A stretch of DNA of 64,000 nucleotides from Prochlorococcus sp. MIT 1307. GTDB taxonomy: Bacteria; Cyanobacteriota; Cyanobacteriia; PCC-6307; Cyanobiaceae. Both the position numbers and the translations under genes were made by a program. The notes under the pieces were generated by a model. The model saw only the letters and a program-made list of their open reading frames with translations. It had not been told where the DNA came from and ran no database searches. The stretch is taken from positions 1 through 64,000 of the forward strand of contig NZ_CP139301.1 of NCBI RefSeq assembly GCF_034092395.1, given 5' to 3'. Positions 3,191-38,284 of this stretch are shown here, one piece after another. Within the stretch, counting starts at the first letter, position 1. Every line of letters starts with the position of its first letter.

Positions 3191-3439
3191 TTAATTGATT
3201 CCCATCACTTTTATTCCTGTTACGAGTATACCCATCCCTACAACACAAGCATTCACAATGCCCATACCAACACCTCCAATTGTAATTACTCCCATTGATA
3301 CTCCTCCTATTGCAATTACTCCCATTGGGACTATCCCAATAGCAATGACACCTCTAGGGGCAATTCCAAAAGAAAATAGCTTAATTTTTAACTTGTCATG
3401 ATCATTTTTATATTTTTGAAGGTCTGTTTTGTCAGTCAC
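3191..3439 (-). CDS. Small glycine pentad-repeat protein
   Basis: This 82-residue protein has a charged 20-residue N-terminus rich in Asp and Lys. The rest, residues 25-82, is a run of five-residue units, each starting with Gly and otherwise hydrophobic: GIAPR, GVIAI, GIVPM, GVIAI, GGVSM, GVITI and so on. Alternate units end in Met and Ile, giving a ten-residue super-period. A second protein at 36030-36476 carries the same repeat, which supports this strand and frame over the open antisense frame. I do not know a function. A membrane-embedded or solenoid fold is possible, because the repeat resembles pentapeptide-repeat helices in period but not in consensus. Confidence 0.7.
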   Translation of the reverse strand: MTDKTDLQKYKNDHDKLKIKLFSFGIAPRGVIAIGIVPMGVIAIGGVSMGVITIGGVGMGIVNACVVGMGILVTGIKVMGIN

Positions 3440-4356: not shown

Positions 4357-4437
4357 AAAGATTGCTCTTTTGGTTGAATTAAAAGTTCTGTTTAAAGCAA
4401 TACTTTGCATTTCTCATGAGAGGGAAGGGATACTGTG

Positions 4438-5817
4438 ATGCCAAATTTGCGGCCTGAAAAATTTATTAATAAACCGGTTGAAGTTATTTCCACTCCTAGA
4501 AAAGAGCATTCTTCTTCAAAGGCAAAGAGGACTTTCATTTGGCTTTGGTTTGGGCAGCTTGTTTCGAATCTTGGAACCCAAACAAGTCTTTATGCTATTG
4601 GGCTTTGGTACTTTTCTAAAACTCAAGAGTTATCTGATTTTGCACTGGTTGCCTTAGTTGTTCAATTAGCAAGAATCTTAGTTCTTCCTCTTCTGTCTAA
4701 GCGTTTGGCTACATGGTCAAGGAAGCGAGTGATGTTGATTGCCAATGGAATAGGGGCTGTTTGTACACTTGCTCTTGCCATGCTTCTTCTTCGAAGTAGC
4801 AGCATGGCGCCATTGCTAGCAGTTTTATCTATACAAGCTTTTGCCGCAATGGCAGAAGCCACTTTGATATTGAGTTTTTCTTCGTTAATTCCAGTTTTGA
4901 TTGCTGATAAAGAAATACTCGTTCGAGCTAATGGGCTTTTTGCTACTACGGACAGTTTGGTTTTAACTATGGCCCCTTTTTTGGGAAGTTGGTTATCAGG
5001 CTTACTTGGATTACAAGGTGTTTTGAGCTTGGATGGGTGTAGTTTTTTTCTTGCACTTATTTGTGTTTTAAAGGCTCCATGGTCAAGCAATTTTGTTGGC
5101 CATTCGGATGGGATCCATCAATGGAGCAATTTGAGCTTTTTACAAAATTGGAAGCGATTTAATTCTTTATGGCTGACTATGCCCTTAGCGCGAGTCATTT
5201 TTGTGATTAGTACTGCTGTTGCCTTTTCTTATGCGGCTACTGAGGTTCTTTTCCCTGCTTGGGTTGCTGTAGCTTTTGGCACTAAACAGATGGCCATTGT
5301 TTTGATTGTTGCAGCTTTGGGCTATTTGATTGGCTTTTTAGCATGGCGGCAAAAGATTGGTCTTTATTGGAACCGTGTTTGGGTAATTGTGCTCTTGATT
5401 CAATCTTTGATTTTGATGGGAGCTGGGCTGCAGATTTTTTCTGATAATCAATTGATTTGGTTCATGGGATTATTTTTCTTCTCTTCTGGGTTGCCAATAG
5501 TGATGTCATCTATTCAGCAATTTTGGAGTGAATTGGTGCCAGCAGAAGAGTTGCCAGAGATTTTTGCTTTGCGCTATATATTTGAATGGACCGCAAGATT
5601 AATTGCTTTTCTAACTGTTTCAATTGCTGTGGATAATTTCTTGACGCCAGCTTTGCATTGGCCCCATTTGCCTTTTTGGATACAAACTTCTCTTGGGATA
5701 GGTGAGGGGCGTTCTATTGCTGTGGCTTTAGGGGGGGTTGGATGGGTGCTCGCTTTATCGATATGGAGCCAATCTGAGAATATAAAATCTAGGAAAGCTA
5801 GGGCTGGTTGCTCTTGA
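4438..5817 (+). CDS. MFS transporter, first gene of the polyketide/glycolipid operon
   Basis: This is a major facilitator protein of 459 residues with about 12 hydrophobic helices, after a soluble N-terminal stretch of about 30 residues. The SLxTQTSLYAIGLW region and the loop with RLATWSRKRVM, close to the MFS loop 2-3 signature, place it nearest the MFS branch that includes EntS and LplT. That branch exports siderophores or moves lysolipids. A purine-rich ribosome site at 4421-4430 sits 7 bases before this ATG; a GTG three bases earlier is the alternative. The next gene begins 15 bases after the stop, so it is probably co-transcribed with the glycosyltransferase and polyketide synthase. It could export or flip their product; the substrate is inferred only from context. 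Confidence 0.88.
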   Translation: MPNLRPEKFINKPVEVISTPRKEHSSSKAKRTFIWLWFGQLVSNLGTQTSLYAIGLWYFSKTQELSDFALVALVVQLARILVLPLLSKRLATWSRKRVMLIANGIGAVCTLALAMLLLRSSSMAPLLAVLSIQAFAAMAEATLILSFSSLIPVLIADKEILVRANGLFATTDSLVLTMAPFLGSWLSGLLGLQGVLSLDGCSFFLALICVLKAPWSSNFVGHSDGIHQWSNLSFLQNWKRFNSLWLTMPLARVIFVISTAVAFSYAATEVLFPAWVAVAFGTKQMAIVLIVAALGYLIGFLAWRQKIGLYWNRVWVIVLLIQSLILMGAGLQIFSDNQLIWFMGLFFFSSGLPIVMSSIQQFWSELVPAEELPEIFALRYIFEWTARLIAFLTVSIAVDNFLTPALHWPHLPFWIQTSLGIGEGRSIAVALGGVGWVLALSIWSQSENIKSRKARAGCS

Positions 5818-5832
5818 TGAAAGACTGGGCCT

Positions 5833-6951
5833 ATGAAGGTTTTAATTCTTACTTCTAGCGGTGGCACAGCTCATGATGCCGCAGCCTATTCAATTAAAAA
5901 TTGGCTGAGGTATTGGGACCCCACTGGGTCAGTTTTAGTCGAACATTTACTAGAGAAATCTAGTTTTATAATGCGTTCAAGTGTAAAATTTTATAATTGG
6001 ATTCAGAAATATTGGCCATGGCTTCATCAGATCTATTGGCGCCTAGTTGAATTTGAAGATTTTCTTAAGCCAGGAACGGTTATTTTTGGTCGAAGTTATT
6101 TCATTCGCTTGCTTCGAGATTTTTCTCCAGAACTAATTATTTCTACGCACCCTCATATCAATCGAGGTCATTTTGATCTAGCAAAGAGAGTTATTGGCCC
6201 TTCACTACGAACAATCACCTGCTGCACTGAGATATATGGTGGCTTTGGTTTTAGCCGTAATTGGTTAACGAGAAAGGCAGATGTTTTTTGGGCGCTAACT
6301 CCAGAAGTCGCAGAAGAGGTTTTTAAAAGAGGATACAAAAATATGCGGTTAGAAATACTTGGCCCTTTATTTGATCCATCTTTTGAGGATCTCCTTGATT
6401 TTCCTTTGCAAGAATTAGAAGGTTTGCAATTACCACTCCTTATTCTTGGAAGTGGTGCTAATGGAGCTAATAATCATTTGAATTTGTTAAATACATTACT
6501 TCCGTTATCTGGTCAGATCCGTGTAGTTGCTTTATGTGGTAAGCGTGAGAGCCTTAAAAAAGATGTGCACAAATGGGCTTCACTTCATCCTGCATTAGAA
6601 GTTGAGGCTCTTGGATTTCAATCTCCTGAAGAAATGGCTAAGCTTTATCTTCAGGCTTGGGCACTGGTTGCTAGACCTGGAGCGCGAACTGCTACTGAGG
6701 CCTTAGCAACAGGTTGTGTGCTGATATTTAATGGATTCAGTACCACGATGCCTCAGGAGCTACTTGCTCGACGTTATTTTTCTAATTACGGCATAGATGT
6801 TGCTATTAATAGACCTGAAAAGCTTTTGCATATTCTCAAAGGTTGGTTAGATCACCCTCAAAATTATTCTCGACTTAAAGATCTTTATCGTTTAAACCTC
6901 TTAAAAGGAAATCGAGAGGGAATTAGACAATTGATCATGGAGTCTGCTTAA
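5833..6951 (+). CDS. MGDG-synthase-like glycosyltransferase (GT28 fold)
   Basis: This 372-residue protein has the two-domain GT-B layout of the MurG/MGDG synthase family, which transfers sugar from a UDP-sugar to a lipid. The N-terminal domain starts with TSSGGTAHDAAA at 7-18, matching the SSxGxGH loop of MGDG synthases, and has STHP at 104-107. The C-domain begins at LILGSGANGANN around 203-214. Its donor-binding loop is RPGARTATEALATG at 281-294. The usual acceptor is diacylglycerol, but the position directly before a polyketide synthase suggests another lipid. Its stop overlaps the ATG of the synthase by one base, so the two are translationally coupled. Cyanobacteria normally make MGDG by an unrelated route (MgdA plus MgdE), so this is probably not a housekeeping enzyme. 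Confidence 0.85.
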   Translation: MKVLILTSSGGTAHDAAAYSIKNWLRYWDPTGSVLVEHLLEKSSFIMRSSVKFYNWIQKYWPWLHQIYWRLVEFEDFLKPGTVIFGRSYFIRLLRDFSPELIISTHPHINRGHFDLAKRVIGPSLRTITCCTEIYGGFGFSRNWLTRKADVFWALTPEVAEEVFKRGYKNMRLEILGPLFDPSFEDLLDFPLQELEGLQLPLLILGSGANGANNHLNLLNTLLPLSGQIRVVALCGKRESLKKDVHKWASLHPALEVEALGFQSPEEMAKLYLQAWALVARPGARTATEALATGCVLIFNGFSTTMPQELLARRYFSNYGIDVAINRPEKLLHILKGWLDHPQNYSRLKDLYRLNLLKGNREGIRQLIMESA

Positions 6952-9900
6952 TGCCTGTTCGCGAACCGATTGCAATTGTTGGCATTGGTTGCCGCCTTCC
7001 TGGCGGGATTGATACTCCTGAGAAATTTTGGGAAATTCTTTCTGAAGGTAAAGAGGTTGTAACCGATATCCCCTCTGAAAGATGGGATATTGACTTTCAC
7101 TTTGACTCAGACCCCAAAAGACCTCTCACTCAGCATGTTCGTCGTGGTGGTTTTTTGGAAAATATTGATTACTTTGATCCAGGTTTTTTTGGAATTACTC
7201 CACGTGAAGCTATTTGCTTGGATCCTCAGCAGAGAATGTTGCTTGAGGTTGCTTGGCGCTCAATGGAAGATGGGGGACAACCTGTTGAATTATTACGTGG
7301 CCGACCAGTTGGAGTATTTATCGGCATATCAAGTGCCGATTACAGCTCACTTTTATGGGCATCTAAAGAAGACTATGCAACTCCTGATAATGAGCCTTTT
7401 ATTTTACCTGGGAATACAGGATGTATCGCGGCCAATAGAATTTCGTATTTTCTAGATCTGAAGGGCCCCAGTTTTACTGTTGATACCGCTTGTTCCTCTT
7501 CATTGGTTGCTGTTCACCTTGCTTGTGAAAGCCTTTGGAGAGGAGAGTCTGAGTTGGCGATTGCAGGTGGGGTACAAGCTCTTATTCACCCTGGAATTCA
7601 GATGAGCTTTTGTAAGGCGGGGTTGCTGTCTCCTGATGGTCGATGTAAGAGCTTTGATGCTGATGCAAATGGCTATGTTCGGTCCGAAGGCGCAGGAGTA
7701 GTGCTATTAAAACCATTATCTGATGCAATTCGATGTCGAGATCAAATTCATGCTGTCATTCGAGGCTCGGCTGTTAACTCAGATGGTCGCAGCCAAGGGA
7801 TTGCGGCACCAAGTCAACGCTCACAAGCTGCTTGCATAAGGGATGCCTTTCAAAAAGCAGGAATAGACCCAGTAGACACTCAATATGTTGAGGCTCATGG
7901 TACAGGTACCCGTCAAGGAGACCCAATTGAGTTGAGGGCCTTAGGCTCTGTTGTTGGATCAAAACGCTCGAGGGAGCAACCTTGTCGTGTTGGCTCGGTG
8001 AAAACTAATCTTGGGCACGGGGAGACAGTGGCTGGTATTACAGGGCTAATTAAGGCGGCTTTATGTATAAGAGAAGGTAAGTTGCCACCAAGCTTGCACT
8101 TCTGCTCTCCCAACCCATCAGTAAATCTCTTTGATTTGGGCTTGCAAGTGCAATCTAGTCTTGAGGCTTTCCCTCAGCCTTTAGCACCATTAGTGGTGGG
8201 TGTTAGCTCGTTTGGGTTTGGTGGAACTAATTCTCATGTGGTATTAAGTGATTCACCTCAGCCTGAACTCCATAACAAGGAAGATATATCTGTAGAACCA
8301 CCTCTCAACATTCTCTGCCTTTCGGCTCGTAGTAAACCTGCATTGAATGAATTAATTCAACGTTATGGAGAATTCATTACTAAAAACCCGCAATTAAATC
8401 TAAATGACATTTGTGCTAGTACTAATATTGGTAGGAGTTCTTTTCCATATCGCTTCATTGCAGTAGCAGCTGATTTTGATGATCTAATTGCACAACTTGA
8501 AGGGAAAGTTGCACCGGCATGGAGAGGAGAGCTCTCCTTAAGTTTAAAGGAGAATCATTCAATTGCTTCTTTCCCAAAAGAACTTCAACTTGGATTGATA
8601 GCAACTGAAGGACGAGATAAGCTCGAAGCTCTTGCTATTGCTATTGGCAAAGGTTACAAGGTTGATTGGAATCTTTTTTACTCACAATTCCCTCATAAAT
8701 GGATTGCTTTACCTGGGCATCCGTTTTTTAGGCAAAGGTATTGGTGGAGTCGAATTGAAGACAAGTCTTCAATTACCAGCCTTTGGTTAGATCATTTAGA
8801 TAAGAACCCTTCTAAAGAGAGAGGTTTGACTAATGATCACTCTTTAGCAAAGCTTCAAAAACTTAATTTGCCTGGCGCTGTTGAACACTATCAAGGCTTT
8901 TTGGATTCTTCTAAATATTTTGATTTGACCGACCATCGTATTCGAGACGTTGTTGTCTTTCCAGCCGCAGGATACTTGGCATTAGCGTTGAAATTGCAAC
9001 AAGAAAGTTGTCAATTGTTGAAATTGCGATCTTTTCAACTGAATAAACCTTTGAAGGCATCTGGTAAATCAACGCAATTCCATGCACTTCTTGATCAAGG
9101 AAGATTGCAATTCTTCAGCAATGACTCTGCTCAAGATGAGTGGAAGTGTCATGGTCAATTGTTAGTTGTCTGTGGAGAGAACATAGCTTTTGAGTCAATT
9201 CCTTCGATTCCGCCAAGATCAAGGGACTCTCAATCTATAGACATAAAAGCTTTTTATAAAGGCTTAGGAAAAATCGGGTTAAATTATGGCACTTTTTATC
9301 AATCCATCACTTCACTTGAGGCAATTCCAGGGCAATCATGGGCTGAGATCGTCAGGCAAGGGAAGGCTCCAGATCGGTGCTTAATTGATGGCTGTTTTCA
9401 GACAGTGGCTGCTTGTGTTGATGGGTCATTAGCTAATAGTCAACTTTTTTTGCCTGTTGGTCTTGATGAAATCAATCTTTCGAAATGGCCATTGCCTGAT
9501 CAATTTCAGTGCCATGCCGCTTTAAGAACTTTGGAAGGCAATGAAAGCACTCTTGTTGCTGATTTGATTCTTGATTCTAATGGCGAATCCTTTGGCCAAA
9601 TTATTGGGTTAAAGCTTAGACGTTTAACACGCTCATTGATTGATCTCCTTTTTCCACCGAAGGAAGTTTTATTTGATGGACCAGATCTATTTCAAACCTC
9701 TTGGACCTCTTTCCAAAATGATTCGGAAAATTTGCCTTTCTCAACTGACCAGAAGATTTGTTTACTAGGTATGAATAAATCAAGGGCAACTGGATTGAGT
9801 GATTGGGCTAATAGTAAAAATTTAGAATTCCAAACCTTAGAAAATGAAGCAGATTTGGACTTTGAATCTGCCATGGTTGTTTATTGGCCAGATACCTCTC

Positions 9901-12900
9901 ATGGGGAACCTGAATTTGCGGTAAATAAATTGCTTCAGTTAATTCAGCATTTAAATATTCATCAGGTCAAATCATTCTTGTTGATTTTGGAGGGGGATGG
10001 ACCAGTAAATAGTTCTATGACCTCATTTATGCGGACTACATCCTTGGAAATCCCTTCATGTCCATTTACCGTACTGCATCTACCTAAAGAGTTAGAAAAT
10101 AAACTAGAGGTGGATTCCTGGAATCAAATTTGGAGTTCTGTTGAGAAAACATCAGAGCTCCGGTGGAGTGATGGTGAATTGCAAATACCACAACTAACTC
10201 ACATGGATGATGAACGTTTCCGGATAGCAACTCATGGCATTGGGCGTTTAGAGGACCTACATAAAAAAAGGGTTGTTGAGACGTCACTTTTACCTAATGA
10301 AGTAGAAATAGCGGTTGAATCGACTGGCCTTAATTTTCGTGATGTTCTTAATGCTTTAGGCCTGCTTAAAGAGCATGTAGCTTCTTTAGGAATTGAAGAT
10401 GAGAAAAACTTGCCATTTGGGGGGGAAGCCGTTGGTCGTGTAATTGCATTGGGATCAAATGTTGACTCATCTCTTATGGGTAGGAGAGTTATTGCTTCCC
10501 TTACAGTTGGAAGTCTTGCAAGTCATGTCATAGCGAACTCGGACTTTTGTGTTCCTTTGCCAAATGGCATGACTATTGAGGAAGGAGCAAGCTTTACGAC
10601 AGCATTTCTTACAGCCATTTATGCTTTGAATAACCTTGCAAAGCTAAAGCCGGATGAGTTTGTTCTTATTCATGCCGCTGCAGGTGGGGTTGGTCAAGCT
10701 GCGTTGCAAGTTGCCAAACGAGTAGGTGCCCGCATCCTTGCGACAGCAAGCGCTCCTAAACAATCAGCTCTTTTACTCCAAGGAGTTGAGGCTGTCTATG
10801 ATTCTCGAAGTATTGAATTTGCTGATCAGGTTCTCGACCATACAAATGGTCGAGGGGTTGATGTTGTCATTAACAGTCTTAAAGGCGAGTGGGTAGAGGC
10901 TAGTTTTCGCTCTCTTGTTAAGGGTGGGCGTTTTATAGAGCTAGGAAAGATAGATGTTTGGAGTAAGCCTGAGGCTTTTAGGCGCCGTCCCGATGTTAAT
11001 TACTTACCCTTTGATTTGTTGGATGTAGCAGCAGCGCATCCAAAGATCTTGCGAAGTTTATTAATTCAGCTGGTGAAAGATTTTGAAAGAGGATTGTTTC
11101 AGCCTCTTCCTCTAGAAGTTTGGCCTTTAGAAAAATGTGAGGATGCTTTTAGATATATGGCACAGGCTCGTCATATAGGTAAGGTGGTCATCAATCAGCC
11201 TAATAAAGCTGAGCCTATTGCGATTTCCTCTAATGCAACCTACCTAGTTACAGGTGCATTTGGTGGAATTGGCAAGAAATTAATTTCATGGCTAGCACAG
11301 AAAGGTGCTAGCTCACTGATATTGGTTAGTCGCTCAGCGAACAGTCCTGGAGCGAGTGCATTTAAGATTTTAGCAGAACTCGAGGAGGCAGGAGTAAACT
11401 GTACTTGTATCTCCTATGACTTGTCGACAAGCCGATTTGAATCGACTCGTACAGAGGACTCACTTGTTCAAACTATTAAATCATTACCGAAAGATAAGCC
11501 GTTACGAGGAATTTTTCATGCTGCAGGAGTCCTTAATGATACTTCCTTTAGCAATCTCAACTCTGATATCTTGAATTTTGTTATGGCACCGAAGCTTGAG
11601 GGATGGCGCCATATTGAAAAGTTGGTTGGAAAGACTTCGAAATTAGAATTTATTATAGGATTCTCATCAGTTGCGGCATTGCTTGGCTCACCTGGACAAG
11701 TGGCTTATGCGGCTGCTAATGGAGCAATGGAAGGTTATTGCAATCCTAATGAGTCAAGACCAGTACGTTTGTCAATACAGTGGGGTCCTTGGCATGGAGA
11801 TGGAATGGCTTCCGGATTGGAACGCCGCTTTGAAAGAGTTGGTATTCGTATGATTGAGTCATCTAAAGCTTTAAATGTACTTGAGAAGCTTTTATATAGA
11901 GGGAAGGGCGGTGTTGTGTCTGTTCTTGATAACGATTGGGAGAAGCTTTCTTCTCAAGCTTCTCCTAGGCAACATAGTTGGTTTTCTACTCTATTGAAAA
12001 ATTCAGGCCCTTCTCCATCAGAGAAACTATGGAAAAAATTAGAACATCGCACTGAGGTCGAACGTCAACTGTTTTTGATGGAGGAACTACGCAAGCTTTT
12101 GATAAGTGTAATGGCGGCAGAAGTAGACGAAGAGTCGTTTGATTCTTCGTCTATAGATTCGAGTGATTCTTTATTTGATCTGGGATTGGATTCATTAATG
12201 GCTGTTGAGTTCGCGTCGATTGTGCAAGCTGAGTTAGGGATTCGTTTAGACCTTGATGCGTTTTCTGAAGACCCAAGTCTAGATGGACTTGCGACGGTGT
12301 CATTAAGGCAGATAACACCTCATACAAACCAATACTTTAATGATGGCTTAGATTTATCGAAAGAAGCCAGATTAGATTCGCGTTGGACATGTCCTAGTAC
12401 TTCAAAAGAAGAGGCTCCAGGTAAGAAAATTCTCATTACAGGTAGCTCAGGATTTCTTGGAGCTTATCTTTTGGCAGGCCAGTTGCGACGTTGGCCCGAT
12501 ATTAGAGTTAATTGTTTAGTACGCGCGACATCGAAAGAACATGGAATGGAGCGGATTAAATCTAATTTGTGCCGTTTTGATCTTTGGGATTCGGTTTGGG
12601 AGAAAAGACTAGAACCCGTTATTGGAGATTTATCTTTACCTTCTTTTGGGCTTGATTCAGAAACCTTTTCAGGACTGGCAAGGGACCTAGGCGGAATTCT
12701 TCACAATGGCGCTCAGTTGAGTCAGATGGCGCCTTATGCACAGCTTTCTGCTACTAACGTAGGAGGAACAAAGGAAGTTTTAAGGCTCGCTGCTTTAGAC
12801 AATCCGATTTGTGTCGAATTCATTTCTAGTGTATCTGTATTTGAATCAGCAGCATATAGAAATCGTGAGCTGCTAGAAGACCAAGATCTAAACAATTGGA

Positions 12901-13532
12901 AGGGTATTCATATTGGCTATTCACAAACAAAATGGGTTAGTGAGCGGTTGGTCTTGGAGGCAGGGAAGGCAGGGTTGCCGGTTTCAGTGTATAGACCTCC
13001 TTTGATAGGAGGCCACTCTAAAACTGGGTACTGGAATCAAGGTGATTTGCTTCAGAGGTTGCTTCAGGGGTGCTTGGTTCTTGGCAAAGTTCCACAGCTG
13101 GAATGGGAGCTTGATTTGGTACCAGTTGACTACGTTTCTGATGCTGTTTCTGCTTTGGCTTGGAGTTCCGAAGCCAAAGGACGCTGTTTTCATTTGCAGC
13201 ATCCACGTCCGCTAATGCTTAATGATCTCCTTAATCAACTCCTCTCTGAGGGTGAGGCTCTCGAGCAAGTCCCGATGGAGCAGTGGTTGCATGCTATTGA
13301 TTCGCACCCTAAAAACCCACTATATCCATTACGCACATTCTTTAAGAAGAGATGGGGAAGAGAGCAGCTTACATATCCTGAACTTAATGCTCTAGGGGTG
13401 AGAGCACGCCCAAGTTGTCGAATTACTCAATCTATACTTGAGTCCATGAATGTGCACTGCCCTGATTTTCAGGACTTGATTAAGCCTTGGGCTAGAACTC
13501 TCCTAGGGAGTTCTAGCCCAAGTGTTACATGA
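6951..13532 (+). CDS. Reducing type I polyketide synthase KS-DH-ER-KR-ACP-reductase, no AT
   Basis: This 2193-residue megasynthase is read in one frame. Ketosynthase: residues 1-430, with Cys181 in DTACSSS, His316 in EAHGTGT and His356 in KTNLGHGE. No acyltransferase follows: only about 150 residues lie between the KS end and the post-AT-type linker at 572-598 (DWNLF...LPGHPF...RYWW), and no GHSxG is present. Dehydratase: His662 in DHRIRD and Asp813 in DGCFQ. Enoylreductase: about 1100-1420, with HAAAGGVGQAA at 1241-1251. Ketoreductase: VTGAFGGIG at 1433-1441, Ser1573, Tyr1586 and an LND loop suggesting B-type stereochemistry. Carrier protein: Ser1748 in GLDSLM. Thioester reductase: TGSSGFLG at 1830-1837 and Tyr1990/Lys1994, expected to release an aldehyde or alcohol using NAD(P)H. 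A full reducing loop implies a saturated chain. Malonyl loading must come in trans, for example from FabD. It is coupled at both ends to glycosyltransferase genes. Confidence 0.95.
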   Translation: MPVREPIAIVGIGCRLPGGIDTPEKFWEILSEGKEVVTDIPSERWDIDFHFDSDPKRPLTQHVRRGGFLENIDYFDPGFFGITPREAICLDPQQRMLLEVAWRSMEDGGQPVELLRGRPVGVFIGISSADYSSLLWASKEDYATPDNEPFILPGNTGCIAANRISYFLDLKGPSFTVDTACSSSLVAVHLACESLWRGESELAIAGGVQALIHPGIQMSFCKAGLLSPDGRCKSFDADANGYVRSEGAGVVLLKPLSDAIRCRDQIHAVIRGSAVNSDGRSQGIAAPSQRSQAACIRDAFQKAGIDPVDTQYVEAHGTGTRQGDPIELRALGSVVGSKRSREQPCRVGSVKTNLGHGETVAGITGLIKAALCIREGKLPPSLHFCSPNPSVNLFDLGLQVQSSLEAFPQPLAPLVVGVSSFGFGGTNSHVVLSDSPQPELHNKEDISVEPPLNILCLSARSKPALNELIQRYGEFITKNPQLNLNDICASTNIGRSSFPYRFIAVAADFDDLIAQLEGKVAPAWRGELSLSLKENHSIASFPKELQLGLIATEGRDKLEALAIAIGKGYKVDWNLFYSQFPHKWIALPGHPFFRQRYWWSRIEDKSSITSLWLDHLDKNPSKERGLTNDHSLAKLQKLNLPGAVEHYQGFLDSSKYFDLTDHRIRDVVVFPAAGYLALALKLQQESCQLLKLRSFQLNKPLKASGKSTQFHALLDQGRLQFFSNDSAQDEWKCHGQLLVVCGENIAFESIPSIPPRSRDSQSIDIKAFYKGLGKIGLNYGTFYQSITSLEAIPGQSWAEIVRQGKAPDRCLIDGCFQTVAACVDGSLANSQLFLPVGLDEINLSKWPLPDQFQCHAALRTLEGNESTLVADLILDSNGESFGQIIGLKLRRLTRSLIDLLFPPKEVLFDGPDLFQTSWTSFQNDSENLPFSTDQKICLLGMNKSRATGLSDWANSKNLEFQTLENEADLDFESAMVVYWPDTSHGEPEFAVNKLLQLIQHLNIHQVKSFLLILEGDGPVNSSMTSFMRTTSLEIPSCPFTVLHLPKELENKLEVDSWNQIWSSVEKTSELRWSDGELQIPQLTHMDDERFRIATHGIGRLEDLHKKRVVETSLLPNEVEIAVESTGLNFRDVLNALGLLKEHVASLGIEDEKNLPFGGEAVGRVIALGSNVDSSLMGRRVIASLTVGSLASHVIANSDFCVPLPNGMTIEEGASFTTAFLTAIYALNNLAKLKPDEFVLIHAAAGGVGQAALQVAKRVGARILATASAPKQSALLLQGVEAVYDSRSIEFADQVLDHTNGRGVDVVINSLKGEWVEASFRSLVKGGRFIELGKIDVWSKPEAFRRRPDVNYLPFDLLDVAAAHPKILRSLLIQLVKDFERGLFQPLPLEVWPLEKCEDAFRYMAQARHIGKVVINQPNKAEPIAISSNATYLVTGAFGGIGKKLISWLAQKGASSLILVSRSANSPGASAFKILAELEEAGVNCTCISYDLSTSRFESTRTEDSLVQTIKSLPKDKPLRGIFHAAGVLNDTSFSNLNSDILNFVMAPKLEGWRHIEKLVGKTSKLEFIIGFSSVAALLGSPGQVAYAAANGAMEGYCNPNESRPVRLSIQWGPWHGDGMASGLERRFERVGIRMIESSKALNVLEKLLYRGKGGVVSVLDNDWEKLSSQASPRQHSWFSTLLKNSGPSPSEKLWKKLEHRTEVERQLFLMEELRKLLISVMAAEVDEESFDSSSIDSSDSLFDLGLDSLMAVEFASIVQAELGIRLDLDAFSEDPSLDGLATVSLRQITPHTNQYFNDGLDLSKEARLDSRWTCPSTSKEEAPGKKILITGSSGFLGAYLLAGQLRRWPDIRVNCLVRATSKEHGMERIKSNLCRFDLWDSVWEKRLEPVIGDLSLPSFGLDSETFSGLARDLGGILHNGAQLSQMAPYAQLSATNVGGTKEVLRLAALDNPICVEFISSVSVFESAAYRNRELLEDQDLNNWKGIHIGYSQTKWVSERLVLEAGKAGLPVSVYRPPLIGGHSKTGYWNQGDLLQRLLQGCLVLGKVPQLEWELDLVPVDYVSDAVSALAWSSEAKGRCFHLQHPRPLMLNDLLNQLLSEGEALEQVPMEQWLHAIDSHPKNPLYPLRTFFKKRWGREQLTYPELNALGVRARPSCRITQSILESMNVHCPDFQDLIKPWARTLLGSSSPSVT

Positions 13533-14710
13533 GTAGTTGGGTTTCTTCTGCACTGTTGCTTGTGTTGGCTTTACAAGCTTTTCTTGTGATTTTGTTTTCT
13601 TGGCAAATTAGATGTCGACGTCTTGAGCGATTAAAATGGCATAAATCACCAATGGGTGGTTGGCCGACTGCTGAGATTGTTTTGTGCTTGCGCGGCGCGG
13701 ATGAAAGGCTACCAGAAATGTTGGAATCAATCGCAAAGCAAGAATATCTTGGGGATTGGCGACTACAAATTGTGGTTGACTCCGTTAAAGACCCATCCTG
13801 GAAAATTGTCAATGAATTTATTGCACTACAGTTCCAAAACGCTCGCTCTAATGTTGCTTGGAAAGAAGTACGACTTCAAGTACTACGAGAAAGGCCATTA
13901 ATGGGCTCACTGAAATGTGCATCACTTCTACAAGCCTTTGATTCTTTAGATTCTGATTCTGCTGTGATTGCGATAGTTGATGCAGATGCTGTTGTTAGCC
14001 ATAAGTGGTTGTCTCAGCTTGTGTTGTCATGTTGCCAACCTGGGGTCGGAGCAGTGTCGGGTAATCGCTGGTTTATTCCAGATCAATTTACTTTGATGAG
14101 CTGGAGCCGATCTGTGTGGAATGCAGGTGCGTTAGTTCTTATGACCTTGCTTGCTATCCCTTGGGGTGGATCTTTAGCAGTGCGACGAGAAGTAGTCGAG
14201 GCAGGTGAATGGAAGAAATTACTTGGTTCTGGCCTTTGTGAGGATACTGGTTTGCTAGAACCTTTAAGGAAATTAGACCTTCGCTTTGTCTTTAGACCTG
14301 AATTATTGGTAGTGAATAGAGAGACGAGTACAAATCTTTTTTCTTTGACCAAATGGATTGGACGTCAATTGCTAACGGCACGCCTTCATCATTCCGCTTG
14401 GCCATTAGTAGCATTACACGGTTTTAGTACATTTCTGTTGCTTTTGGCAGCAATCTTTCATAATGAATGGCAAGCTGTTTTGATTTATGAGTTGGGCTGT
14501 TTGGGTTTGTTGGTATGGATTGAGATCATTGCTATGCAACGCCCGCCATTGTCGGTATGGAAGTGGGCAATTGCCTTGTTCCCTGGTCAGATTATTAATG
14601 GAGTTGCGACCATACATGCGTTCTTTGCAAGGAAGGTGGAGTGGAGCGGAGTTATCTATAAAGTTGCTTTAAAGCCTCGAGGTGTAATGCTTATGGACTC
14701 TTCAGAATAA
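13529..14710 (+). CDS. Membrane GT2-family glycosyltransferase, ceramide-glucosyltransferase-like
   Basis: The protein has 393 residues with a membrane anchor at 8-27, a GT-A catalytic domain, and two or more C-terminal membrane helices after residue 290. Metal and nucleotide ligands are visible: DAD at 151-153 and the GLCED loop with Glu238 and Asp239. A RQLLTARLH stretch stands where these enzymes carry (Q/R)xxRW; here the Trp is replaced by His. This layout matches the ceramide glucosyltransferase/HpnI group (GT21-like), which glycosylates lipids at the membrane face. Its ATG overlaps the stop of the polyketide synthase by four bases (ATGA), so it is translationally coupled. It overlaps the convergent START-like gene by 20 bases at its end. 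Confidence 0.88.
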   Translation: MSSWVSSALLLVLALQAFLVILFSWQIRCRRLERLKWHKSPMGGWPTAEIVLCLRGADERLPEMLESIAKQEYLGDWRLQIVVDSVKDPSWKIVNEFIALQFQNARSNVAWKEVRLQVLRERPLMGSLKCASLLQAFDSLDSDSAVIAIVDADAVVSHKWLSQLVLSCCQPGVGAVSGNRWFIPDQFTLMSWSRSVWNAGALVLMTLLAIPWGGSLAVRREVVEAGEWKKLLGSGLCEDTGLLEPLRKLDLRFVFRPELLVVNRETSTNLFSLTKWIGRQLLTARLHHSAWPLVALHGFSTFLLLLAAIFHNEWQAVLIYELGCLGLLVWIEIIAMQRPPLSVWKWAIALFPGQIINGVATIHAFFARKVEWSGVIYKVALKPRGVMLMDSSE

Positions 14711-15278
14711 GTTCGCGAAGTATCAACATAGAATTCTTCATGTTTTTATCGAAATGCTTGTTAAACAATGGCTTTAGGAATCCTGGTAAGGCTGGTTCTA
14801 CTTTGATCCTATGTGCAATCAGAGTTCCTTTCCTTACTGGAATTAGGAACCAATTACCTTCAAGTGTATGAATAAAATCTCCTCGTAGAAGCTTATAAGT
14901 CAGCATGCTTTTTGGGTGCTCTTTTATTTCTATTAAAGCCTTGATTTTTAAACCAAAGGTGTAAGGACCTTTATACGTTTGCTTTATCTGAAGCTTCTGA
15001 TTACTTTGATTAATTATCTCGACCTCTTGGATATCAGGCATCTGGAGAGCAGTGCTTTCATAACGTGTGAGCACATCCCAGGCCTTGTTAGGAGGAACTG
15101 CAACTATCATTGAAGTAGTAGTTTCTCCTTCAATTCTGCGCAGGACCGGCTCATCACTTTGGGCTTTAGAGGAAGTTATCCCTATGGGGAGGCTTAAGGT
15201 CAGTACTAAGAAAAGAACACTTTTTAAGGAATTCCTTCGCCATTGTTCGTTTTGTCCAAATCCAGTAACTACAGTCAT
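14691..15278 (-). CDS. Secreted or anchored START-like (SRPBCC) lipid-binding protein
   Basis: This protein of about 195 residues has a basic N-terminus, a hydrophobic signal-like stretch (SVLFLVLTLSLPIG) and then an SRPBCC/polyketide-cyclase fold. The family pattern is recognisable in VPPNKAWDVLTRYESTALQMPD near the start of the fold and the long C-terminal helix with NMKNSMLILREL. SRPBCC proteins hold hydrophobic ligands in a deep pocket; some are cyclases or lipid carriers. Sitting between glycosyltransferase and hydrolase genes, it might bind the lipid product outside the cytoplasmic membrane. This is inference. The ATG at 15278 is preferred; an upstream start at 15326 would add 16 residues and overlap the divergent hydrolase frame. 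Confidence 0.8.
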   Translation of the reverse strand: MTVVTGFGQNEQWRRNSLKSVLFLVLTLSLPIGITSSKAQSDEPVLRRIEGETTTSMIVAVPPNKAWDVLTRYESTALQMPDIQEVEIINQSNQKLQIKQTYKGPYTFGLKIKALIEIKEHPKSMLTYKLLRGDFIHTLEGNWFLIPVRKGTLIAHRIKVEPALPGFLKPLFNKHFDKNMKNSMLILRELILKSP

Positions 15279-16436
15279 GGTGAGATTTTTCAGGCAGAAA
15301 GATGTCGCTCTTCTTTTGACCCTCAAATATCATCTCGCACTTACTTTATAAGTGGTTTTGATCCAAGAGGAGCGGCCCATTACAAGCGTTTGTTTCAGCT
15401 TGAACTTAGGACACTTGGTTGGCGACTGGGAAAAAGCTTTAGTACTGAGTTCATGACACGTTGGACATTGGACCAAACTGATGGGGGGCTTACTTCTTCC
15501 CCCTCTGATTTTTGTTTTCTTCATTGGGATGACATTGCTAGGAGCAATTGGCCACGAAGCCCTTTGCTGATCTTGTGGCAATACGCTGGAGTTGCATGGT
15601 TTTATTTGTTTAGAGGCCGCTTATTTCACCTGGCAAATCTTTGTCCTGGGGTTGCTTTATGTGGAGCCTATCCTTTGCTTTTCATCGCATTCTCCTTTTG
15701 TTTGGCTTGTTTGTCTATACCTTTAACTATTGCTGCCTTAAAGGTTTTTACGGGCCTTCAGTTAATTCAACTTTTTAGCGGTGTATTGGTAGGTTTAGGT
15801 GTTTTATACTTCGCTTGGAAACTTGGCAATAAACTTGGTATTGCTTGGCTTACTCGTTCTATATTATTTACTCATCGACTTGGTCAATTACGTGATGTTG
15901 ATTTGCGCCAGAGAATAAAGGAATTTGCTGATCAATTGATGATGCTAGAAATAAAAGAGCCTTCATTAGATATTACATTAGTTGGCCATAGCAGCGGATC
16001 TTTTGTATTGGCAATGCTTGCAGCTGAATTACATCGTCGTCCTGATGCAGCGTTTTTGCTAACTCGAATCAAGTTGCTCACTTTGGGACAGAATATTGCA
16101 AATCTAGCTGTATATCCTAAGGCCCAGTTTTTTCGCGATGACTTGCAGGAATTGACTACTGCACCACGTATCCCTTGGCGTGATGTCACTTCTAGCCAAG
16201 ACTTTCTTTGTTATGCCGGAGTTAATCCTTATAGTAGTTGTGGACTCCCTATCCCTATTGGTGAACCTTATCCACAGATGGAGACTGTTGATTTTGCAAA
16301 AGCGCGAGGCCTTACCAAAATGTGGGATTTGATGAGTAATCAATTTGACCTTCATTTTGATTATCTTCGCAATATCTCTACTGGAGTAGGGCTATTCGAA
16401 CAACTAACTTTAAGGACTAAGCTCTCAGAATTGTGA
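15243..16436 (+). CDS. Alpha/beta hydrolase with two membrane helices
   Basis: The frame gives up to 397 residues. It opens with YFISGFDPRGAAHY near residue 34-47, a typical first strand and oxyanion region. Two hydrophobic helices lie at about 105-165. The nucleophile elbow GHSSG is at 248-252 with Ser250. This suggests a membrane-bound lipase, esterase or thioesterase. The start is uncertain: no ATG or GTG precedes the conserved part, only TTG at 15243 or 15252 and rarer codons further in, and the 5' end overlaps the divergent START-like gene. The P450 gene follows 9 bases after the stop. It could trim or transfer the acyl product of the polyketide operon. Confidence 0.82.
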   Translation: MFVLSKSSNYSHGEIFQAERCRSSFDPQISSRTYFISGFDPRGAAHYKRLFQLELRTLGWRLGKSFSTEFMTRWTLDQTDGGLTSSPSDFCFLHWDDIARSNWPRSPLLILWQYAGVAWFYLFRGRLFHLANLCPGVALCGAYPLLFIAFSFCLACLSIPLTIAALKVFTGLQLIQLFSGVLVGLGVLYFAWKLGNKLGIAWLTRSILFTHRLGQLRDVDLRQRIKEFADQLMMLEIKEPSLDITLVGHSSGSFVLAMLAAELHRRPDAAFLLTRIKLLTLGQNIANLAVYPKAQFFRDDLQELTTAPRIPWRDVTSSQDFLCYAGVNPYSSCGLPIPIGEPYPQMETVDFAKARGLTKMWDLMSNQFDLHFDYLRNISTGVGLFEQLTLRTKLSEL

Positions 16437-16445: not shown

Positions 16446-17873
16446 ATGGTTGATAATTATCCAGAAGAGCCATTGCAACCTCCTTGGCCTAAACCAAAAC
16501 CTTATACATCTAATATTTTTAGAAGATTAGCTAGAGGTTGGAAATCTTGGTTTGGACTTCTGAATGAGTGGGATTTTCGAGTTTCTCTTGGCGAGTTGAA
16601 TTTGCTTGGTAAACGGGTTTTTCTAGTGAATGATCCTTTGTTGGTTCGAAAAGTTTTAGTCGATGAAGTGGATCTATTTCCGAAGCATCCATATACTCTT
16701 TGGATTCTTGAACCTTTAATTGGACGAGCCATTTTTTCTGTTAATGGGGAAGAATGGGCTATTCAACGCCGATTAATTGATCAGGCATTTCAGGTCGCAA
16801 ATCTCAAGAAAGCATTTCCTGCAATGACTGCCGCAACAAGTTCGTTGTTGCATCGCCTTGAAATGAATGGTGTAGATAGCTTTGTCGACATAGATAAAGA
16901 GATGACAATGGTTGCTGCCGATGTAATCATTCGCACCATACTTAGTCGGCCGATCGAAGGAGATGAGGCAACTGATATTTTTAAAGCATTTTCTCGCTAT
17001 CAGCGACATGCTGGCAGAGCATTGGTATTGAGATTTTTGAGGCTCCCTAAAAGTTTAATCCAACTAAGTTTGAAAGATGATGCAAAGGTGATTAGAAATT
17101 GGATTCAAGCTTTTATTCATGAGCGATTAGAGCAAAACAAGGTAGATGAACGAAATCCTTTAGAAAAAATTGATTTTCTCGATACTTTGATAATGGCTGA
17201 AGATCCAAAAACTAAAAAAAAATTTTCAGAGCAGGATCTTGTCGACCAGGTTTGTTTTTTGTTTCTTGCTGGTCATGAAACATCAGCAAGCTCATTAGGC
17301 ATCGCGGCTTGGTTATTAGCTCGTTCTCCTGAAGTTCAAAAGCAAATGCGGGTTGAGGTTATGTCTGTGGTCTGTGATAGGCCAATTCATTCAATGCTTA
17401 GGTTTGATGAACTACGTCAACTTCCTTACAGTGAAGCAGTATTTAATGAAGCACTTAGGCTTTATCCTCCTGTAAGTTTTTTTATTCGAGACAGAGACAA
17501 AAAAGACGGAGAATTAGCCACCTCTGAAGGGAGACGACGCTGCCCTGTGGGTTCGCTCTTAACACTTTCTCCGTGGGTGATTCAGCGTCATGATAAATAT
17601 TGGCCAGAGCCTCACCAATTCAAACCAGAACGCTTCTTAAAGAATTCATCTTCATTGCAGCGCAATGCATTTTTACCTTTTGGGATGGGGCCGCGTAAAT
17701 GTCCAGGGGCTTCATTTGCGAAACAAGAGGCACTCTTGGTGTTGGCTGAATTGGTAAGGCGTTATGAATTGCTTCCTGTGACTGATCAGGATCCAGACTT
17801 TGTAGGATTATTGACAGTAAGGTCACAAAATGGCATCCGCTTGAGACTGCGCGAGTTAGAACATAAGACTTAA
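16446..17873 (+). CDS. Cytochrome P450
   Basis: This is a complete P450 of 475 residues. The I-helix oxygen-binding motif is AGHETSAS, the K-helix ExxR is in NEALRLYPP, and the haem loop FGMGPRKCPGA has the cysteine ligand at 419. The N-terminus is soluble and proline-rich (PPWPKPKPY). The closest style is the bacterial fatty-acid or terpenoid hydroxylase group related to CYP110/CYP120, but the subfamily cannot be set by eye. Such enzymes hydroxylate a hydrophobic substrate using electrons from ferredoxin; no redox partner gene is nearby. It follows the hydrolase by 9 bases and overlaps the convergent porin gene by 18 bases. A role in tailoring the polyketide lipid is inferred from position only. 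Confidence 0.93.
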   Translation: MVDNYPEEPLQPPWPKPKPYTSNIFRRLARGWKSWFGLLNEWDFRVSLGELNLLGKRVFLVNDPLLVRKVLVDEVDLFPKHPYTLWILEPLIGRAIFSVNGEEWAIQRRLIDQAFQVANLKKAFPAMTAATSSLLHRLEMNGVDSFVDIDKEMTMVAADVIIRTILSRPIEGDEATDIFKAFSRYQRHAGRALVLRFLRLPKSLIQLSLKDDAKVIRNWIQAFIHERLEQNKVDERNPLEKIDFLDTLIMAEDPKTKKKFSEQDLVDQVCFLFLAGHETSASSLGIAAWLLARSPEVQKQMRVEVMSVVCDRPIHSMLRFDELRQLPYSEAVFNEALRLYPPVSFFIRDRDKKDGELATSEGRRRCPVGSLLTLSPWVIQRHDKYWPEPHQFKPERFLKNSSSLQRNAFLPFGMGPRKCPGASFAKQEALLVLAELVRRYELLPVTDQDPDFVGLLTVRSQNGIRLRLRELEHKT

Positions 17874-19832
17874 TTTTGCTCCAAACCGGGTGCGTAAGGA
17901 CTTTAGTAGCTGTCCCATATCCATTAGTCCTGCGGCATTACTGGCATATATATCTATATTCAATGAGTCGTTCGCCAGCCATCGCAATGACAAAGTACCA
18001 TTGGTTTGGCTCTTGTCAGAGAGGACAAAGTTTCCTTCGGGAATCAGCTGAAAGTTTTTGCTTAGTTGAACATTCGCACTCATTCCTATACCCCAGGGAT
18101 TACTAATTCCGCTCCATGCTCCCTTGGTGTTGAGATTTAATGCTAACCAGTTGTTGGCTTCCCAGGTTTGAATTGATTCAGCAAAAACATATCCCTGATT
18201 ACTAGCAGGGTCCTTATTTCGCCCTAAAGTAACCCTTCCTGCTACCCATAAAGGCGCTCCTCGCAGAGGAGATAAGGAAACAGCTTTTCCACCAATACGC
18301 CAATTCCATCCTTTGTCAGTTGCATACGTTGTGGCCAGATCATTTGTCTGAGGAACGTTATTAAACCATCCGACATTTGTTAGTTGTAGTTGAAAGATAT
18401 TTGAAATAGAACTTCTAATAGAGCCAAAAAAGTTCTCTTCATTATCGACATTGGCCCATAGTTGAGTAGTGCCATCAGGCGGGACAAGAGCTGTATTTAC
18501 AGTTACACCACCTGAAGCAAGAGAAAGTTGGCGACGACTTAATTCGTTTTGTGGTGTATCGGGTGCGTCGTAGGTGTAATGAAAGCGAGCGGAGTACCCA
18601 AGGCGGTTGGATGATGGCAATGTTAGTAACGCCGTTGCAGGAGTAGCACCCCAGCCATTAGTTAGTGTTCCCTCCAAACTAATCCTTGGATTGAGATTCC
18701 ATGCAAGACCTCCGCTATAGATGGGGACTCTTTTGAAGTTGAGGTTGGAATCAAAACTGTTCGTACCAGGGCCAAAAGGCATTAAGGCCGAGCTAAAAAG
18801 CCCTATCTCTGGTATTGGTTGCCAAAGCCCACCACCTGCAAGCCATACATTATTCCCATAAAACTCACCTGCCCCTCCTTGCCCGTCTCCTTGAGTCGCA
18901 GGAAGGAAACTTACACCAGGGGTAATTGTGGTTTGCCATTTTGCTGAGCTGTTCCATGTAAGTGGAAGAGCTACTGACCCAACAAGATTTCGAGTGAAAA
19001 CAAGTTTTCCTGAATCGTTGAAAATGTTAGGACTTGCGCCATCTTGCCCTTTGCTGCCTCCACTACCTACCTCCCAGGCTTCAATAGAACCAATAAATGC
19101 CAACTTCCTCCCTCGTACATTGTTTTGGTTAGATTGAAAGGCATTGCTATTAATGAAGTTCCATTGAAAAGCCGCTCCATAACTCCTCCAAAAGTTACCT
19201 GGGAGCTTTGCACGATTAACTATTGATGAATAGAGTGGGTCATCAGCTTCAGAAACAAAGCCTGATATTTGTAGCCTTTCAGACACCCCATAATCGACTC
19301 GAGCCGCGTAATTTTGATTGCCTGTACCGCCTGCCTCGCCTCCTGTAAATGGTGAAATTTGATAAGCACTAAAACGTGCTCCTTCCATCTCAGTTACTTG
19401 ATTAGCAGTTGGTACTGCCATCCCAAGGCGAAGAGGAGGTAAATAGTCTTCAGGGCGAGGCTTTATTGCATTGAGCATGGCTTGTGCTTCTTCAAAACTT
19501 TTAGGAGATTTTGATTTTATTTTTGTTGGGAAGGGGAGTTTGGAATTAGGAAGAACTTTCCAAATGAGGTTTTTTTTAGGAGAGCTTCCTTTGAGTGAAA
19601 TTGGGGTCCAAAGAAGGGATGAATTTTTCTTAGTCAACAACTTTGAATTTACAGTTGAATTTTGAGCTTTATTTTTTGAATCTTTAAGTTTTGATTGTTG
19701 AGCATCGTTTCCTAGATGTTGCTCTAATGAGAATGGTGACCAAATTTCTTCGGCATTTGCTATTTGAGTGTGGAGGATTTGAAGAAGCAAGAGGGACTTC
19801 AGACACCTTCTTTTTAGTAGTAAGATATTCAT
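17856..19832 (-). CDS. Outer-membrane beta-barrel protein, unknown substrate
   Basis: The protein has 658 residues. It starts with a signal peptide (LLLLQILHTQIANA, cleavage near residue 27), followed by a Ser/Lys-rich linker to about 110. Long alternating, aromatic- and Gly-rich strands follow (NYAARVDYGVSERL, ISLEGTLTNGW), and it ends in Phe (KLSLMF), the usual outer-membrane insertion signal. This describes a barrel of roughly 20 strands. I do not recognise a transport family. It lies 7 bases upstream of the galE stop in the same direction, so galE and this gene may share a transcript. A role in surface glycolipid or polysaccharide display is possible but unproven. Confidence 0.78.
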   Translation of the reverse strand: MNILLLKRRCLKSLLLLQILHTQIANAEEIWSPFSLEQHLGNDAQQSKLKDSKNKAQNSTVNSKLLTKKNSSLLWTPISLKGSSPKKNLIWKVLPNSKLPFPTKIKSKSPKSFEEAQAMLNAIKPRPEDYLPPLRLGMAVPTANQVTEMEGARFSAYQISPFTGGEAGGTGNQNYAARVDYGVSERLQISGFVSEADDPLYSSIVNRAKLPGNFWRSYGAAFQWNFINSNAFQSNQNNVRGRKLAFIGSIEAWEVGSGGSKGQDGASPNIFNDSGKLVFTRNLVGSVALPLTWNSSAKWQTTITPGVSFLPATQGDGQGGAGEFYGNNVWLAGGGLWQPIPEIGLFSSALMPFGPGTNSFDSNLNFKRVPIYSGGLAWNLNPRISLEGTLTNGWGATPATALLTLPSSNRLGYSARFHYTYDAPDTPQNELSRRQLSLASGGVTVNTALVPPDGTTQLWANVDNEENFFGSIRSSISNIFQLQLTNVGWFNNVPQTNDLATTYATDKGWNWRIGGKAVSLSPLRGAPLWVAGRVTLGRNKDPASNQGYVFAESIQTWEANNWLALNLNTKGAWSGISNPWGIGMSANVQLSKNFQLIPEGNFVLSDKSQTNGTLSLRWLANDSLNIDIYASNAAGLMDMGQLLKSLRTRFGAKLSLMF

Positions 19833-25647: not shown

Positions 25648-25774
25648 GACTCTTTATTTCGTTGATCAACGAAGGTGGGAGTTTACAAAGCCGTTAATTT
25701 TTTAGTGATTATGAACTTGTTGAGTGGTTTATGATTCAAGCTCGTTTAAGTAAAGGAAGCCCCTCCTCAAAGCA

Positions 25775-25957
25775 ATGTCTCTAACCCCTTTGTTTGCCAT
25801 TTATGGACAACCAGGCGTCCCAATGGACTTTTTGCTCCTGACCTTTTTCCATGCTTTGTTCGTAATTCCATTTCATATAGTCCTTTTTCGCTGGAGAGCC
25901 AACAGTGGCTACACCAGTTTTTATGCCAAGGATTATTATGTTGTGAAAGATGCTTGA
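25775..25957 (+). CDS. Small membrane protein, unknown
   Basis: The protein has 60 residues with one hydrophobic helix at about 18-38 (FLLLTFFHALFVIPFHIVLF) and a polar, Tyr-rich end. A strong hairpin terminator stands 24 bases after the stop in the same direction. This favours this frame over an overlapping antisense frame of similar length. No family was recognised. Confidence 0.62.
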   Translation: MSLTPLFAIYGQPGVPMDFLLLTFFHALFVIPFHIVLFRWRANSGYTSFYAKDYYVVKDA

Positions 25958-25981
25958 CCATTAAGTTTGGTATTGCATCTC

Positions 25982-26010
25982 AAAGGACAGGCTTTAAAAC
26001 CTGTCCTTTT
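25982..26010 (+). terminator. Terminator with 10-bp perfect stem
   Basis: The stem AAAGGACAGG (25982-25991) pairs with CCTGTCCTTT (26000-26009) over an 8-base loop and runs into T-rich sequence. It ends the small gene at 25775-25957. Confidence 0.8.
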
Positions 26011-26435
26011 ATTTGAAAATGTAGAACTTCCCAACTATTCGCTTTTGTTTTGACAAATGATTTTTTTGATTTCTCTAGACCTGGACTTGGGAAACCCCTA
26101 AACTAGATTTATACTCAAGTTTATCCTAGGCATTATGATTAATGAATATTGCAGTCAATGCTTTATAAGTGAAATTTGTTTCGGCATCTAATTTTTTGGG
26201 TTTCTAATATAGGGTCTTATTGAATAGATCGACACTATCATAGAAGAATATTGATATATTCCTAGGAAGGTGATTTTTGTATAAACCTTAGAAGGATTAA
26301 CTTGAATCCGAATTCAATATAAATCAAATGCTTTTAAAAAACATTGCAGACATTAGCCTTGATTAATTACTAACTAAGTATTGGAAGAGATCTATATCGT
26401 CATAAAATCATTTACCTGCTTCTCTTTTTTTATGT
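26011..26435. other. Gene-free spacer
   Basis: There is no convincing frame on either strand and no RNA gene that I can recognise. The right end lies behind the PsbN stop codon. Confidence 0.5.
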
Positions 26436-26576
26436 TTAATCATCATCAGCTTCCCATGGGTCTATAAGTTTTTTGGATGGAGGACCAAAAGAAAAATATA
26501 TCCCAATGCCTGTTAGCCCTAAAACACCAATCAAGATTGCAAGTATTAAAGAGAAAGCTGGTGAGGATGTTTCCAT
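26436..26576 (-). CDS. psbN: PsbN, photosystem II biogenesis protein
   Basis: The protein has 46 residues. It starts METSSPAF, has one membrane helix and ends with the PsbN hallmark FGPPSKKLIDPW plus an acidic tail (EADDD). PsbN is a thylakoid one-helix protein needed for repair or assembly of photosystem II and is not a stable subunit. In cyanobacteria psbN usually lies divergently beside psbH, but no psbH frame exists on the + strand to the right. It is therefore displaced, or this is an extra copy. The Trp in DPW, instead of the usual Phe, is a small departure. Confidence 0.85.
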   Translation of the reverse strand: METSSPAFSLILAILIGVLGLTGIGIYFSFGPPSKKLIDPWEADDD

Positions 26577-27043: not shown

Positions 27044-27190
27044 GTGTCTCCGTCTTGGCCTCTTATAGGACTAGTACTTATTTTGATAGGCCTTTTGGTC
27101 AAATTTGAAGTCCAGGTGATTGACTCGGACGATCAAGAAGACATCAAAGGCTCAAAGGAAGTTAAGGGACAGAATGGTATCAATAGTTAA
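27044..27190 (+). CDS. Small one-helix protein with acidic tail
   Basis: A 48-codon frame starting with GTG encodes a helix WPLIGLVLILIGLLVKF followed by an acidic and Lys-rich tail (DSDDQEDIKGSKE). A TTG two codons earlier is an alternative start. The hydrophobic-then-polar layout looks coding and is common among tiny picocyanobacterial proteins, but no family is recognised. Confidence 0.5.
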   Translation: MSPSWPLIGLVLILIGLLVKFEVQVIDSDDQEDIKGSKEVKGQNGINS

Positions 27191-31148: not shown

Positions 31149-31165
31149 GATAGAAGAGTCAATAT

Positions 31166-38282: not shown

Positions 38283-38284
38283 TT

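Follow-up and report, generated by a model that had tools for sequence, protein, structure and literature searches.

Heterocyst glycolipids are the oxygen-barrier lipids of nitrogen-fixing cyanobacteria, and the system that most closely resembles the locus described here is the hgl island of Anabaena sp. PCC 7120 (HglE..B, HglT, HgdABC, DevBCA). Within that island, All5342 and All5343 are GT2 glycosyltransferases and All5341 (hglT) is a waaG homologue (PMC2211374); all5343 is among the genes required for proper synthesis or deposition of heterocyst glycolipids (PMC11804610), and DevBCA is their exporter (PMC6161253). An hgl island has been defined as a cluster of homologues of at least 7 of the 19 Anabaena hgl-island genes (PMC11804610). 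Related islands in non-heterocytous cyanobacteria make C24 1,3-diol ‘HG analogs’, which are PKS-made glycosylated alkyl diols of the kind that we predict below; these islands are of hgl/pfa descent, lack hglT and, like the cluster reported here, form a unit unrelated to N2 fixation (PMC11804610). They differ from our cluster, whose KS is unrelated to theirs and whose glycosyltransferases are its own, and Synechococcus and Prochlorococcus are unmentioned in the main text of that study.

The locus lies in the deep-living Prochlorococcus sp. MIT 1307, a unicellular picocyanobacterium without heterocysts, unlike Anabaena sp. PCC 7120. The window analysed is a stretch of 64,000 nucleotides that starts with dnaA at base 1 of the single-contig genome of 2,032,419 bases.

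An eight-gene cluster beyond the four-gene block

Four intact open reading frames, W4 to W7, occupy positions 4438-14710, all on the plus strand. W4 and W5 are separated by 15 bp, W5 and W6 overlap by 1 bp (TAATG), and W6 and W7 overlap by 4 bp (ATGA), exactly as the preliminary description had given the genes and spacings (+15, -1, -4). Pfam searches confirm MFS_1, MGDG_synth, KS/DH/ER/KR/ACP/NAD_binding_4 and Glycos_transf_2 domains across the four proteins. The same description had called this a four-gene operon; the genes and junctions stand, but not the extent, as the conserved unit runs to about 19832. Beyond W7, most relatives carry a START protein on the opposite strand, the hydrolase W9, a cytochrome P450 and a convergent outer-membrane-like protein. 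The conserved cluster is thus one of eight genes (W4-W11), in which these last four either belong to the unit or are associated with it.

W4 (4435..5817, plus strand, ATG at 4438) is an MFS transporter (PF07690, 56 bits) and a putative exporter, with about 10 hydrophobic segments and a weak match to the macrolide-efflux MFS models of NCBIfam; it stands beside the PKS gene in most relatives. W5 (5833..6951, plus strand) is a GT28 lipid glycosyltransferase resembling MGDG synthase and UgtP. It scores 35.7 bits against a cut-off of 25 for MGDG_synth (PF06925), which places it in the family, and its profile matches include a processive DAG glucosyltransferase (9wde, 2.5e-22) and MGD1 (4wyi, 2e-16). 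The fold family and motifs are those of MGDG synthase and UgtP, but the W5 subfamily is confined to the cluster. W7 (13529..14710, plus strand) is a membrane GT2 glycosyltransferase, recognised by its Glycos_transf_2 domain and hydrophobic segments, for which no solved relative was found by sequence. Neither enzyme can be equated with HglT, which is a GT4 protein, since W5 is GT28 and W7 is GT2.

On the minus strand, W8 (14691..15326) encodes a START/polyketide_cyc-fold protein (PF03364, 35 bits) with a signal-peptide-like N-terminus and an N-terminal hydrophobic segment; its position is conserved in most relatives, and most orthologues also have a signal-peptide-like N-terminus. W9 (15243..16436, plus strand) is a membrane protein identified from its structural model and its occurrence. 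Of 16 carriers, 15 have it, as against none of 18 genomes without an intact cluster, a pattern that marks it as cluster-specific. The AF2 model has a pLDDT of 85 and contains an invariant GHSSG motif; Foldseek matches were weak, and VIA-align gave a Z of about 12 to thioesterases and esterases. The model makes the alpha/beta-hydrolase fold clear, and the thioesterase or esterase activity is putative. W10 (16446..17873, plus strand) is a cytochrome P450 (PF00067, 232 bits) with 46-74% identity to orthologues in the equivalent position. The convergent W11 (17856..19832, minus strand) is outer-membrane-barrel-like, as judged from a beta-rich, low-confidence model; it is present in 15 of 16 carriers but also in 5 of 18 genomes without an intact cluster, and is therefore associated with the cluster rather than diagnostic of it.

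Several further features of the window were observed. Beside the cluster, positions 3191-3439 (minus strand) encode an 82-aa protein of GLTT-type repeats (GVIAIG/MGVITIG). The stretch 25700-39800 has few ORFs of at least 150 aa, a low density of long ORFs for a streamlined genome, and is possibly a small-gene region or decayed DNA. Judged from ORF translations, 41951-58636 is an apparent type IV pilus/competence region, with a prepilin peptidase-like gene, PilT/PilB-like ATPases, PilC-/PilQ-like genes and several pilin-like genes. In a type IV pilus region, 61431-62753 (minus strand) encodes a 440-aa protein in which a pilin-like N-terminus is followed by a long, unusual, low-complexity (Gly-Asn)n repeat tail.

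A reducing synthase without its acyltransferase

W6 (6951..13532, plus strand, 2193 aa) is a reducing type I PKS that Pfam resolves into KS-DH-ER-KR-ACP-TR, which is a reducing cis-AT module (KS-AT-DH-ER-KR-ACP) in every part except the AT. The KS and KS-AT linker (aa 5-518) are encoded at 6963..8504, with the motifs DTACSSS, EAHGTGT and NLGHGE. After the site of the excised AT (8505..8648), where the post-AT linker YKVDWxxFY...LPGHPF is kept, come the DH (8880..9632; HxxxxxxxFP, DGCFQ), the ER (10293..11192; HAAAGGVGQ), the KR (11235..11795; S / YAAAN, LND) and the ACP (12141..12296; GLDSLM), all on the plus strand. The protein ends in a thioester reductase (TR; 12435..13145, plus strand; TGSSGFLG, YSQTK), as had been proposed earlier; on the NCBIfam model TIGR01746 it reaches 283.5 bits, where 213 is the cut-off. 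The nearest solved relative of this domain is the MxaA reductase of myxalamide biosynthesis (4u7w, 4.6e-68), from a different assembly line with another product.

The absence of the AT had been overlooked in the preliminary description. W6 gave no match to the acyltransferase family PF00698 in the Pfam search, and the W500-W600 interval comprises only about 100 residues (101), compared to about 390-413 in AT-bearing relatives, which rules out a domain that Pfam had simply missed. Since the linkers on either side, KS-AT and post-AT (VDWxxF...LPGHPF), both remain, the AT was removed cleanly; in one AT-less protein (L037) the junction is shorter than in the other members. Freshwater relatives of W6 retain the AT. 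In a KS tree, 17 AT-less proteins fall on one side of a branch with an SH-aLRT of 94, against the tool's mark of 95, and both outgroups are AT-bearing. A single loss of the AT is thus the simplest history, and a gain in the freshwater lines is rejected on the grounds of the AT-bearing outgroups.

The KS, ER, KR, ACP and TR motifs are retained among the AT-less proteins, and the DH proline has gone in five Synechococcus copies (HALCGYPLFA or HRLGGQPVFA). The reading frame is intact in 16 full-length AT-less relatives, and dN/dS is 0.12-0.17, with dS saturated in wider pairs. By these rates, the gene is under strong purifying selection.

Like AT-less (trans-AT) type I PKSs in general, W6 has no integral AT, keeps the linkers and would need a free malonyltransferase. 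No dedicated discrete AT gene is found in the cluster, and FabD (283 bits against a cut-off of 261) is the only PF00698/Acyl_transf_1 protein in the whole genome, which also has one PPTase; we infer that malonyl comes from FabD, no other donor being visible. What separates W6 from the trans-AT synthases is the lack of an AT gene in its cluster, the AT-bearing freshwater relatives and, perhaps, the type of its KS. Among solved structures, the closest single-stretch match is the cis-AT CurL, at 490 bits, compared to 396 and 381 for the trans-AT PksL and PksJ; ranked by summed score, 7zma comes top, next to CurL as the single-stretch best. This similarity suggests that W6 is an AT-deleted cis-AT synthase and not a classical trans-AT one.

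Distribution of the cluster and its relation to the hgl island

A search for the same genes found the block in dozens of picocyanobacterial genomes. In a sample of 400 genomes of the family, the PKS (match threshold 1e-100) was matched in 51 and W5 in 43, with both in 40, W5 only in 3, the PKS only in 11 and neither in 346 (among the last, G003 and G010). The Fisher p of 2.7e-41 for this association overstates independence, as the genomes share ancestry. In two of the three genomes with W5 only (G282 and G306), W5 carries stops; the third (G101) has an intact W5 next to a PKS that is cut after about 144 residues of the KS. An intact W5 without an intact PKS is therefore seen in 1 of 400 genomes, where a KS remnant is kept, so the preliminary description's concern that the glycosyltransferases might be conserved without the synthase is not borne out for W5. 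Given this and the recurrence of the block, the arrangement is not due to chance. The PKS-only cases comprise weak matches to other PKSs (G044, G054, G059), split forms and fragmented assemblies.

Named carriers include the Prochlorococcus single cells AG-363, AG-402, AG-409 and AG-439, the marine Synechococcus AG-673, and freshwater Cyanobium and Synechococcus. In a sample of 386 genomes drawn from the whole phylum, this family alone has full-length relatives. Verrucomicrobial relatives of W5 (L128, L129) have 35-39% identity and occur without this PKS. Neither the cluster nor a product was found described in the literature searched, mostly without subscription journals, which leaves the block unmatched to any known cluster; PMC11559063 makes no mention of polyketide or glycolipid.

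Some individual loci deserve separate mention. In G101 (L139, 8838-13419), the PKS remnant is directly followed by sugar-transferase/aminotransferase polysaccharide genes, so that the cluster is interrupted by an envelope-polysaccharide island. A short W5 remnant in AG-673-F03 (L130, 9998-10339) lies beside a 60% relative of W12, with relatives of hisS (W13) and UDP-glucose dehydrogenase (W14) downstream; W12-W14 also flank the cluster of the window, and L130 is likely a loss scar at an old site. The genome bins G137 (L034, L044) and G253 have two and three W5 copies, respectively, and G137 has two whole clusters. In a Verrucomicrobia MAG (L128, 7788-14861), the W5 relative (35%) overlaps a stand-alone KS, with a FabA/ACP fusion and a GT4 gene near, and this is possibly another lipid-glycosylation cluster.

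Two cousin clusters (L038, L041) have a split synthase, read in L038 as KS-KR-ACP-TR plus KS-AT-DH-ER-KR-ACP; from its domains, the KS-KR-ACP-TR protein would be expected to yield a 1,3-diol. Both carry FtsX and HlyD genes, which in L038 score above cut-off with the DevC and DevB models and just under it with DevA, and W5 was not found in either. In L040 (7233-8513), a Rieske oxygenase-type gene, perhaps an alternative hydroxylase, lies between two split PKS genes.

The gene set had been called different from that of hgl, which is only partly right, because W7 has a homologue in the hgl island. In a search of 146 cyanobacterial genomes across the phylum (E<=1e-25), all W7 matches outside its own family came from families f3, f7 or f17 (18 genomes), which are of heterocystous/hgl-island type, and they lay near an HglE-type synthase wherever an HglE match was listed. 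When an hgl GT2 served as the query for the reciprocal search, W7 was the sole match in each of five carriers, and five non-carriers gave none. Identity is about 34-40%, and the motifs LCLRGAD, SLKC(A/S)SL, VDAD, GNRW and PWGG(S/T)L are invariant or nearly so. From these comparisons, W7 is homologous to the hgl-island GT2 of the All5342/All5343 type, an assignment made by family and type, length and gene order rather than against the Anabaena sequence. In the islands that we fetched, the GT2 gene adjoins a GT4 gene (PF00534) that fits HglT, as judged from gene order and the listing of All5341 under waaG.

The remainder of the cluster departs from the hgl island. When hgl-island ORFs from four genomes (L156-L162, none of them Anabaena 7120) were compared by blastp with the 15 genes of positions 1-24000, clear matches were confined to W7 and PKS domains, with none for the GT4 HglT; the homologues fall short of the seven of 19 genes that define an island. 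W6 is not of HglE/PfaA type (TIGR02813, 309 bits against a cut-off of 1010), a search for HglE-type synthases at E<=1e-80 gave no match in G000, and the W6 KS is less similar to the KS of HglE (about 33% identity) than to the type I KSs of other cyanobacterial synthases (about 48-55%). The cluster thus has a modular type I KS, whose AT was lost, in place of the HglE type, a GT28 enzyme in place of the GT4 HglT, an MFS exporter with no DevBCA/HgdBC genes, and an additional P450, START protein and hydrolase. What it shares with the Anabaena island is a PKS with ACP-linked TR release, the homologous membrane GT2 and, by prediction, a sugar-alkyl alcohol product; in the split-type cousins, the DevBCA-type exporter is a further point in common. 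Membership of the hgl-island group is rejected on KS type and gene set; given the KS, the absent HglT and the MFS exporter, the cluster is not an hgl island, though it is similar in its working.

Predicted product, alternatives and significance

We consider it probable, from gene content and homology, that the product of the cluster is a glycolipid, placed in the envelope or exported, whose aglycone is a fatty alcohol or diol. A glycosylated long-chain product had been suggested from the outset and is still the best reading, strengthened by the co-occurrence of W5 with the PKS, by the homology of W7 to the hgl GT2, by the DevBCA-type exporter and expected 1,3-diol of the split cousins and by the cluster-specific W9; the compound itself is deduced. 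In the proposed pathway, FAS-II would supply an acyl starter and FabD would load malonyl onto the PKS ACP, a step suggested by the loss of the synthase's own AT and the lack of another AT in the genome. The KS, KR, DH and ER would then extend and reduce the presumed long chain over one or several cycles, and its release by the TR would leave an aldehyde or a primary alcohol. Hydroxylation by the P450 may follow, one or two sugars would be added by the GT28 enzyme, the membrane GT2 enzyme or both, and outward transport, perhaps into the envelope, would fall to the MFS pump together with the START and outer-membrane proteins.

Against the glycolipid, TR release may end at the aldehyde, and the exporter in the window is an MFS protein, not a Dev-type one. 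MFS pumps often export soluble metabolites, and the main alternative, unlikely but deserving serious attention, is a small, secreted glycosylated polyketide (an allelochemical, a signal or a siderophore-like compound) that the pump releases into the medium and that is not an envelope lipid. The weak similarity of W4 to macrolide-efflux pumps, the P450 as a tailoring gene and the patchy distribution, typical of natural-product clusters, are all consistent with such a compound, but a single fully reducing module would give a plain alkyl chain, both glycosyltransferases resemble lipid enzymes, with W7 belonging with the hgl-island GT2, and the split cousins come with DevBCA-type exporters.

It is distinctly improbable that the PKS, with W9 as a thioesterase or acyltransferase, makes a fatty alcohol, aldehyde or ester that stays unglycosylated, and that the glycosyltransferases act elsewhere, on an envelope glycan or a DAG lipid. 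The fold of W9 and the resemblance of W5 to DAG glycosyltransferases would fit such a division of labour; the loss or decay of W5 along with the PKS and the overlap between the glycosyltransferase and PKS genes speak against it. Hardly any weight can be given to the strongly disfavoured idea that the synthase is a degraded, non-functional relic: the AT is missing and in some relatives the PKS is truncated or W5 is riddled with stops (G101, G282, G306), but the intact frames, the catalytic motifs (the DH proline apart) and the low dN/dS all argue for function. Returning to the glycolipid, we tentatively put forward, with rather less than even confidence, a broader scenario in which picocyanobacteria including low-light Prochlorococcus have independently assembled an hgl-like envelope lipid from an hgl GT2 and a modular PKS; in the same scenario, the marine PKS, having discarded its AT, came to depend on the FabD of primary fatty-acid synthesis, so that a streamlined genome would hold a type I PKS coupled to FAS-II.

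Prochlorococcus is known for streamlined genomes and, prochlorosins apart, for a sparse secondary metabolism. That it maintains a megasynthase gene of 6.6 kb along with two lipid glycosyltransferases dedicated to it implies that this major phototroph of the ocean has a lipid not yet described, and the synthase offers a case of conversion from a cis-AT to an AT-less form in which the ancestral AT-bearing form survives in freshwater relatives. As cultured carriers exist, including Cyanobium and Synechococcus strains, the question is open to test now. If the glycolipid reading is true, heterocyst-type glycolipids arose twice, with the GT2 in common, and long-chain glycosides may not be biomarkers of heterocystous cyanobacteria alone; more speculatively, some of the long-chain alcohols used as marine biomarkers could stem, unrecognised, from such alcohols or diols.
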